Of a stretch of DNA of 64,000 bases, positions 23,001-39,800 are shown one piece after another. The stretch lies in contig JANVCC010000018.1 in the NCBI GenBank assembly GCA_025345505.1, positions 57,052,724 through 57,116,723 of the forward strand. The letters run 5' to 3'. Source of the stretch: Todiramphus chloris collaris (Eukaryota; Chordata; Aves; Coraciiformes; Alcedinidae). Position numbers and translations under genes: made by a program. Under the pieces are notes generated by a model. That model saw only the letters and a list, made by a program, of their open reading frames with translations, was not told the DNA's origin and did no database searches. Position 1 is the first letter of the stretch. Each line of letters begins with the position of its first letter.

Positions 23001-25268
23001 ATTACTACATGAAAAGGTGTTAATTCCTGTCACCCAGCACATTCAAACTAGGGAACTGTAGTAAATTATAAATTAGAAAAAACAGCAACATCATAAAAGC
23101 CTCTTCTGCTTACACTATGATTTCTACTGCCAAGAATCCCATGGCTCTTTATAAACATTCATTCTTAACTTGCTCTTAGGAAGAAACCACAGAGCAGGCA
23201 CCTCTGAACAGCCATCTGCCTGCTCTCTTGCAGTGCACAAGGCCATCACAACAGCTTTTGGAAGGACAGTGAAAAAGATTAACAACATGTGGCTATTTCA
23301 TGGGTAGTGACAAGGATCAGAAGTATTCTCACGTTCAGAGACTTGACACTTGACCTCATCCTGGGCTTTCAGATTTCACTCCCAAAGCCCAGCTGCTCGT
23401 GGAACCTGAGGACTGAACTTTTGTCATTTCCAAGAAATGAGGGCCTCATACAGACTCAGCAGTGAGAAGGAAGGATACCCCCTCATAACTCAACAATATC
23501 ATCTCCTAAACCATGTAAGTCTTCCTGGAGTAACCCAGTAATTAAGTTAGGTTTTGGTGGGCTAGGAAAAAACTAATGAATAAAAATACAAGCTGATAAA
23601 GTAGCACAAATTTTATTGAGGAAATCCCTCTACAGATTATGGCATTTAAAAGGTATCTTCCCTTTTCTCCAGCCACGTGGATTTTGGCAAAGAAATGTCA
23701 GGCAACTGAAATCAAGGGCATATATAGACAAGAGTAAGAGGGGATCTTAGCATACTGATAACCCTGGGGTGTTATCTGCAGTTTTGTCTTGTCCTGAAGT
23801 ACTCAGGAATTTGTTTCACTTTCTTCCCCTAAGCCCCATTCCATTCTTTATCTGTTTTTCTGTCTCTGTCACACTTTCCTAATCCAAATGCTAATAAAGA
23901 ACATGGGAAAAAAATGGTCTTTGCTGTCACTGTCAAGACTAATAGCCAGAATACCTTTTAACAACACATTGCTTTCATTCCAAACCATCTCATGTAACTA
24001 ACAAACTGAAATTCAACTACACATATAGACCACATTACTAACTTTTGAAGTACTCTCACCTTGGTGGTGAAATTAGGTTAAGACTGCACAGAAATGTCCT
24101 GCCCCAAAGACTAAATGTAGCAAAGACTAACATAGCAAAGTCTGCAAGAACTGCAGGTAAAATAGAGAGCTGACATCATGGAGTTTTGCTGCAGGCTGGT
24201 TTAATGGGCAATGTATGGCTGCAATTCATTTGGCTCTGATCATTTTCCTTCTCATACTTTCATGTGAGCAATCTCTGCCATACATTCCTGTGTTGCTTAG
24301 GCACAGGACGGTGTTGGCAGAGAGCAAGCACTACTCCATGTGTATATTAGAATGAAAAATGTGGAAAGATCAGCGGTAAAATCTTGCTTCTATATTTTGC
24401 CAAGGCAGTTTCAATTTATGTATTATAGAGTGCCAGAAGATTCTGCTGCAGGGACAATTTGGGGATAAAAGAAAAATAAATAATTACTGTAACTATTTCT
24501 GGAAGGAGATGCGTTAGAAATGGCAGGGAGTGAGTGTTAGTTAGCATGTGTAAACAAAAGTGGTGTCAGGACTTCCATGCTATTTACTGTAGCTGTTTTC
24601 TCAACTAAAAGCTGTCCATAAATGGACCAGGTTGTAGACAGAACAAGTCTGCATCATGCAGCGCTTAATGTATCACACTCTTTTTAATATTACCATTTAC
24701 CCCAGAAGACCTGTGGCATCTAATTACTTTTTTTTGCCAGAGAATTATTATGCCTAGATTTTTTGTTACTAAATATGCCTTTTCCTATATTCCATATAAG
24801 CAGTTGTTCAGCACGTATTTGAAAAATGCGTGTATACCATGAGCAGTGTGGCTCATGCCAGCAGGACTGGCAGCAGAATATACAGCCAACAATGCCCTAG
24901 CAAGCTTCACAGAAAGTGACATTTAACCTCCTGCTTCATATTCATGACTACTAAATGAGCAATTGCAAATGCTGCTTAACTCCTGGCTCTGCATCCTCCC
25001 ATCAGCTATTAGAAACTTTCAGTGACAGATAAGGAATAGGATATAATTCAGAAAAAAAAACCCAACTGAAGCGACCCTTTGTCTCTTCACCCCAAGTGAA
25101 AATGTTAGTGTTCAGAGGTTTATTTAAAAGTACCTCTTCTATTTTCTTCTGCATGACCTTCCATTGACATTCCCATTCTTTCCTTTCGTTGTCAAATCTC
25201 TCCAGCAATTCCATCTTCTCTTTATTCCAGTTCCTCTCAGTATTCTCCAGTTGTTTACGCAGGTCCAT
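16835..25268 (-). CDS. KIAA0408: KIAA0408 orthologue, five coding exons, complete
   Basis: Uncharacterised coiled-coil protein. Exons are 25134-25268, 22017-22358, 21591-21670, 18905-20279 and 16835-17008. Junctions are in frame and total 701 residues; recalled human KIAA0408 is 694. The start ATG sits in a strong context (ACC ATG G). Order: N-terminal coiled coil (residues 1-60), a Ser/Asn-rich variable region, a conserved helix ([20 protein letters not shown], from residue 160), an SH3-type PPVPPR motif (about 265), [16 protein letters not shown] (about 438), [15 protein letters not shown] with [13 protein letters not shown] (about 540-573), and a basic [18 protein letters not shown] block near the C-terminus. 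The variable parts diverge strongly from human while the named motifs are nearly identical. The N-terminus resembles a C-terminal coiled coil of SOGA1/MTCL1. Function unknown. Confidence 0.95.
17009..18904 (-). other. KIAA0408 last intron
   Basis: Flanked by donor GTAAGG (18904 side) and acceptor TTCTAG (17009 side). No feature is recognised inside. Confidence 0.85.
18905..20279 (-). CDS. KIAA0408: KIAA0408 coding exon 4 (main exon)
   Basis: 1375 bases from acceptor ATTTGCAG| to donor GAG|GTAAGG. The first base completes the split Arg codon, then [12 protein letters not shown] follows. The Met at 20278 is internal, not a start. It carries the PPVPPR motif (PxxPxR, class II SH3-ligand type), the [16 protein letters not shown] block, [28 protein letters not shown] and a final helix ([19 protein letters not shown]). 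Spacer regions are Ser/Asn/Thr-rich and probably disordered. Read-through past the donor adds only 10 residues before a stop. Confidence 0.96.
20280..21590 (-). other. KIAA0408 intron 3
   Basis: Between exons 3 and 4, a phase-2 intron. Nothing is recognised inside. Confidence 0.85.
21591..21670 (-). CDS. KIAA0408: KIAA0408 coding exon 3
   Basis: 80 bases, too short for ordinary ORF calling. It encodes [20 protein letters not shown] followed by KKSNHR and two bases of the next Arg codon (donor AG|GTAAAA). The human protein has [20 protein letters not shown] at this place, so recognition is firm. Acceptor TTTATAAAG|. Confidence 0.95.
22017..22358 (-). CDS. KIAA0408: KIAA0408 coding exon 2
   Basis: 114 codons from acceptor GTTTTTTCAG| to donor GTA|GTAAGT, phase 0 on both sides. 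It starts [11 protein letters not shown], which continues the N-terminal helix (human: LCREVKLWRK), then becomes Ser/Asn/Glu-rich and poorly conserved, and ends YIGDLNV. Identity rests on the aligned first residues, the phase and the position between two recognised exons. Confidence 0.88.
22359..25133 (-). other. KIAA0408 intron 1
   Basis: Between the start exon (weak GTACTT donor) and exon 2. Short reading frames inside show no family features. Confidence 0.8.
25134..25268 (-). CDS. KIAA0408: KIAA0408 coding exon 1 (start exon)
   Basis: 45 codons starting [20 protein letters not shown] and ending VMQKKIEE at donor GAG|GTACTT, an unusually weak donor. The acceptor ACACAG| ends at 25278, so the exon proper is 25134-25277 with 9 bases (ACT GTA ACC) before the ATG. 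These 9 bases are in frame and lack a stop. If unspliced, the frame runs on for 43 residues to a stop at 25002. Confidence 0.94.

Positions 25269-39800: not shown

Follow-up and report, generated by a model that had tools for sequence, protein, structure and literature searches.

SOGA3 and KIAA0408 as probable parts of a single MTCL-family gene with a candidate alternative last exon

Introduction

Are SOGA3 (older name C6orf174) and KIAA0408, which lie side by side on the minus strand of a bird genome, two genes that can be joined by readthrough, or one gene with two alternative endings? The human SOGA3-KIAA0408 readthrough annotation joins the same two neighbours and treats the joined message as a product of two genes, whereas here it is read as the long form of one. 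An earlier note on this DNA had claimed that an in-frame join of the two results when the exon for a membrane tail is left out, and that the shared frame would be hard to explain if the genes had always been separate. We analysed a window of 64,000 nucleotides, part of contig C7 of the 1.17-Gb genome of Todiramphus chloris collaris, together with two paralogous loci of the same genome: one on contig C102, which we take to be MTCL2 (SOGA1), and one on contig C31, presumably MTCL1 (KIAA0802/SOGA2). Our comparison makes it likely that a single gene of the MTCL (SOGA) family, MTCL3, has SOGA3 as its N-terminal half and KIAA0408 as its C-terminal half, with an alternative last exon that codes for a hydrophobic tail. 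MTCL3 is already in print as a name of SOGA3 (PMC12880232, in the part available).

Results

An open frame across two neighbours

The features of the locus that bear on the question are as follows.

63001..64000, minus strand: CpG-island-like 1-kb bin covering the first exon of SOGA3, itself extending up to or beyond the edge of the window (GC 0.67, CpG o/e 0.68)
62957..63181, minus strand: SOGA3 N-terminal coiled-coil exon, 67% (C102) and 75% (C31) identical to paralogue exons, borders placed by eye
59344..59502, minus strand: SOGA3 N-terminal coiled-coil exon, 68% (C102) and 79% (C31) identical to paralogue exons, borders placed by eye
38136..39311, minus strand: SOGA exon (PF11365, E 1.9e-66), with a phase-0 donor that is the putative branch point of two forms
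36722..36832, minus strand: candidate alternative last exon, coding for a 36-residue hydrophobic tail and a stop after a phase-0 acceptor, similar to C102:2601844-2601942
25278..25328, minus strand: 17 codons that probably lengthen the KIAA0408 'start' exon upstream, preceded by a phase-0 acceptor (ttacag|GAA), in register with both paralogues
25134..25277, minus strand: KIAA0408 'start' exon, 48 codons, ATG at 25268, phase-0 donor (PF14818, E 1.2e-22)
22017..22358, minus strand: KIAA0408 exon 2, open, GT-AG borders, phase 0
21591..21670, minus strand: KIAA0408 exon 3 (80 nt)
18905..20279, minus strand: KIAA0408 exon 4, large
16835..17008, minus strand: KIAA0408 last exon with stop, matched at C31:6643833-6643765

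The SOGA exon has a counterpart on C102 (E 2.4e-67), and the solved structures searched with it gave no match at E 0.001. Among viral contigs, 29 stretches fit a pattern and none of them coded for a relative. The window also holds a purine-rich short tandem repeat at 28933-29307, broken by N positions (the window has 10 N in all), and a 185-residue open frame on the plus strand (62962-63519), antisense to the GC-rich SOGA3 start and probably spurious.

The elements of the junction are present as they had been described. The exon at 39311-38136 closes in AGTCAG|gtagac and thus ends in phase 0 at 38136, and the KIAA0408 start exon has an acceptor, after 25278, nine in-frame bases before its ATG at 25268 (gttacacag|ACTGTAACCATGGAC). 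A splice from 38136 to 25277 gives a continuous protein, the frame running uninterrupted down to the stop in the joined exons (39311-38136, 25277-25134, 22358-22017, 21670-21591, 20279-18905 and 17008-16835; 1,097 codons including the stop, counted from 39311). Joining 38136 to 25328 instead also leaves the frame open, with 1,114 codons including the stop, likewise counted from 39311. The acceptors at 36832 and at 25328/25277 are all in phase 0 with the donor at 38136, and the proximal exon has its own stop.

In-frame joining is expected by chance in about one case in three, and 63 of the 1,788 AGs in the region score at least as high as the acceptor at 25277 on a rough acceptor score built from base frequencies. 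This score is an unreliable guide, giving -1.07 to the acceptor of the C102 exon; on it, 25277 reaches 3.91 and 25328 reaches 3.68. For these two reasons the junction facts by themselves are weak evidence. The homology to the paralogues is not.

Both halves lie within one gene in the paralogues

On C102, five further exons, placed by eye, stand between the SOGA exon (2599817-2601037) and the PF14818 exon (2604830-2605081) and connect the two; another exon in this interval may have been missed. All seven exons of this chain are divisible by three and have phase-0 GT-AG borders, giving 723 codons with no stop. Since every mapped C102 exon is in phase 0, the frame compatibility seen at the window locus is what inheritance predicts. 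C31 carries, on one strand and in order, SOGA3-like N-terminal exons (at 6739186, 6737331 and 6691651), two coiled-coil exons of the middle part, then the PF14818 exon and lastly a KIAA0408-like C-terminal motif. A SOGA exon was not found on C31: in a profile search of the genome, PF11365 matches over the cut-off lay only on C7 and C102, with three weaker matches on other contigs. A 5-kb run of N (C31:6680373-6685372) lies where the SOGA exon of an MTCL1-like gene would be expected.

That both halves sit within one gene in the paralogues bears out the earlier argument that the shared frame is hard to explain for two genes that were always separate. It also changes what the junction is taken to mean: the frame is open when the tail exon is skipped, as had been claimed, but one MTCL-family gene with an alternative last exon fits better than two genes with readthrough.

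The coiled-coil middle of the paralogues was searched for between 25329 and 38135 with seven queries, the peptides of the five C102 exons and of their two C31 counterparts, and nothing better than E 0.11 appeared among the best three plus-strand matches listed per query. An MTCL3 long form would thus have a shorter middle. We take the lack of these exons as a difference within the MTCL/SOGA family and not as a defining one.

The KIAA0408 start aligns within a longer exon of the paralogues

The KIAA0408 start exon carries PF14818, the SOGA 1/2-like coiled coil. Three of the four PF14818 matches listed genome-wide pass the cut-off, namely the window on C7, C31:6659928-6659779 and C102:2604947-2605084 (the fourth has E 2.9), and matches occurred in 2 of 14 control genomes, none of them over the cut-off. 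The 48 codons of the start exon align without gaps at 50% identity to C102 and 52% to C31, and the phase-0 donor is the same in all three. The presumed start methionine (TVTMDL) corresponds to an internal methionine in both paralogues (SAVMDL and SVVMDL), in which the exon is open upstream of this position; these upstream parts are 54% identical to each other.

The similarity does not stop at the exon border set by the 25277 acceptor. The tblastx alignment with both paralogues reaches upstream to 25319 among the matches listed, and the 17 codons at 25328-25278 are in register with the paralogue stretches ALKREREEHQHLLAESY and AFKREREEHKKLLAESH. Only 7 of 13,296 open 17-codon stretches on the minus strand of the locus's largely intronic (non-coding) regions score at least as high against both paralogues, 3 of 34,629 non-coding 51-mers of the locus match the observed identity (24 and 25 of 51 bases), and 0.7% of 100,000 residue shuffles of the extension reach its score. 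Because 17 more in-register codons resemble both paralogues, the coding exon very probably starts further upstream, at 25328 (phase 0), and the paralogue similarity up to about this point suggests that the codons are, or once were, translated. With the exon extended in this way, the nine-base leader before the ATG no longer appears as a special linker; that idea was rejected, its codons aligning with the internal codons SAV and SVV of the paralogues.

A side question, compatible with the one-gene reading, is whether the long message uses the acceptor at 25277 in place of the one at 25328, giving SVSQ-TVT-M. The two acceptors are about equal on the rough score (3.91 vs 3.68, the score being a poor judge), but the paralogue similarity extends to about 25328, and we regard use of the inner acceptor as the less probable choice, though a real one.

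The C-terminal end of KIAA0408

The last exon of KIAA0408 is identical in 19 of 23 residues to the matching C31 stretch (E 1.4e-9 against 60 kb), and the two have in common a C-terminal RPANRRxPSRWAS motif. When the whole 57-residue exon was compared with the 1.17-Gb genome, the best non-self place was the same C31 stretch (E 0.003), followed by matches at E 1.4 and 1.7. Both ends of KIAA0408 are thus linked to the MTCL family, one by the PF14818 start exon and the other by the last-exon match in C31. Exons 2 to 4 showed no clear similarity to either paralogue, and exon 2 had no Pfam match either. No copy of the motif turned up in the 50 kb of C102 searched (including 7.6 kb of N); a match there at E 0.002 falls in the wrong frame of another exon. 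A further C31 match (6651539-6651327; 86 residues, 29%, E 0.002 with composition correction off) spans exon 4 and the last exon, and may be a further remnant of homology.

A tail exon that resembles a candidate exon in MTCL2

In the second intron past the SOGA exon, C102:2601844-2601942 codes for ATCLLILCFLLVSALSPAMVMKLLLLIILFVVL and a stop after a phase-0 acceptor. The window tail matches this stretch in tblastn with short words and the low-complexity filter off (E 2.7e-5 and 6.4e-5); the default word size gives a shorter match at E 0.015. Fifteen of 33 residues are identical and the stop is at the same place. Among 100,000 composition-preserving shuffles, one reached the score and none the identity count. 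Given this similarity, the alternative membrane-tail ending probably predates the split between MTCL2 and MTCL3. Use of the C102 exon is uncertain, since its stop comes some 100 bases ahead of the following coding exon and neither AATAAA nor ATTAAA was found in C102 2601901-2604000; in the window, an AATAAA stands at 36445. In 130 kb of C31 (5 kb N) there was no convincing match to the tail exon, the best having E 0.020 and being of low complexity.

Promoter signs and reported expression

Apart from the bin over the first SOGA3 exon, one other bin was flagged, at 38001-39000 over the SOGA coding exon (GC 0.47, o/e 0.60), and no CpG-island-like bin lies near the KIAA0408 start in the window. 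The one CpG-island-like bin at 63 kb fits a single promoter. CpG-poor promoters exist, so KIAA0408 may still have a separate start.

Published expression reports give hints in both directions on whether one gene or two is at work. According to the available part of PMC10486655, which cites another study, SOGA3 and KIAA0408 are among eight genes that are hypomethylated and overexpressed in neuroendocrine prostate cancer. In the accessible part of PMC6249266, a 70-gene neuroendocrine signature includes the two, and low expression led to the removal of both in one cohort; for the TCGA cohort, SOGA3 is named among the genes removed but KIAA0408 is not, so that the two names sometimes differ in behaviour. 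The gene lists of PMC8182989, in the portion available, name C6orf174 twice and KIAA0408 once, which says little either way.

Discussion

One gene or two

Our results point to SOGA3 and KIAA0408 as one gene through homology, order, strand, phases and open frames. Phase-0 donor 38136 would have two kinds of splice partner. Spliced to 36832, the message would end in the old alternative last exon and give a short protein with a hydrophobic C-terminal tail, the annotated SOGA3; spliced to 25328 (or 25277), with the tail exon skipped, it would give a long untailed protein with a coiled coil and a C-terminal region, in the MTCL layout. What has been called a fusion is then most likely the ancestral long form, and the tail exon an old alternative last exon. 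We infer use of both splices and a membrane location for the tail. By analogy with MTCL1 only, the tailed form would keep the N-terminal part and attach it there, while the long form would add the C-terminal part and act on microtubules as MTCL1 does. KIAA0408 itself would be a shorter message begun at an internal start, or else the long message seen only in part. Of tailed SOGA3, soluble KIAA0408 and the long fusion, the one with the weakest backing is a separate soluble KIAA0408, because its start methionine aligns with an internal paralogue methionine and no CpG-island-like bin is nearby. We give about even chances to a stronger statement: that KIAA0408 is not independent, that MTCL3 is a two-state gene in which a last exon older than the MTCL2/MTCL3 split toggles the protein between a membrane-tailed N-terminal half and a full-length, untailed microtubule crosslinker, and that MTCL2 may keep the switch.

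The competing account that deserves most attention holds that one MTCL ancestor split into two genes that are now transcribed separately, leaving the in-frame join as a fossil with at most low-level readthrough. Several features of the locus would sit well with such a history: an ATG is present in the first KIAA0408 exon, the tail exon has its own stop and is accompanied by the AATAAA at 36445, and the paralogue middle exons were not detected between the halves. Separate names are also in use, the accessible part of PMC6249266 giving both, and one cohort there dropped SOGA3 but not KIAA0408 for low expression. Against this stand the 17 codons upstream of the 25277 acceptor, which to this day read through in frame and resemble both paralogues, together with a frame that is kept by both nested acceptors, the lack of a CpG-island-like bin near KIAA0408, and the way in which the two change together in neuroendocrine prostate cancer (PMC10486655, in the part available). 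On balance, we consider a completed split unlikely. That the two are unrelated neighbours joined in frame by coincidence is far less credible still: chance alone keeps the frame in a third of all joins, and acceptors of such rough quality are common (63 and 71 of 1,788 AGs), but the PF14818 match, the paralogue exons within one gene, the C-terminal motif and the tail similarity all speak against it, and chance joining was rejected as contradicted by the paralogue architecture.

Consequences of a single MTCL3 gene

As a kind of system, this is ordinary: a known family with an alternative last exon. More notable, it seems, is that KIAA0408 makes most sense as the half missing from MTCL3, with an exon that would extend upstream, and that the tail switch appears to be common to a paralogue. 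The family link of KIAA0408 is implicit in a public database, since Pfam already names PF14818 SOGA 1/2-like. In the open literature searched, with subscription papers outside its scope, we found no use of the joined name, no SOGA3-KIAA0408 fusion or readthrough and no naming of KIAA0408 as an MTCL member, and the available parts of PMC5546597, PMC6249266, PMC12880232, PMC10486655, PMC10839001, PMC11408250 and PMC8182989 state no fusion and no MTCL membership of KIAA0408. The name KIAA0408 is uninformative, and it appears in gene lists and tables (PMC6249266, PMC10486655 and PMC8182989, in the parts available). If KIAA0408 supplies the C-terminal half of MTCL3, data on its expression and mutations would have to be pooled with those of SOGA3, disrupting KIAA0408 exons alone would leave the tailed short form, and a short SOGA3 construct would be without the C-terminal part. 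An old tail exon common to MTCL2 and MTCL3 would, if true, offer a straightforward means of tethering microtubule crosslinkers to membranes.

In MTCL1, the N-terminal domain crosslinks and the C-terminal domain stabilises microtubules, with coiled coils between them, according to the available part of PMC5546597. The MTCL3 long form would resemble MTCL1 in this long layout. At the level of exons, the window locus resembles the MTCL1 locus on C31 in its N-terminal coiled-coil exons, its PF14818 exon with an internal methionine and its C-terminal FSRPxRPANRRxPSRWAS motif, in the same order and on the same strand. Unlike the window locus, that of MTCL1 has middle coiled-coil exons, shows no convincing tail exon in the 130 kb searched and has its SOGA exon expected in an assembly gap. 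The MTCL2 locus on C102 shares with the window the SOGA exon, the phase-0 chain, the PF14818 exon and a counterpart of the tail exon; it differs in having five extra exons between the SOGA and PF14818 exons, in a C-terminal motif that was not found in the 50 kb, and in a tail stop about 100 bases before the next exon. At these paralogous loci, C102:2598996-2599391 and several places on C31 gave many tblastx matches to each other among the matches listed, and look like an interspersed repeat that does not belong to the genes.
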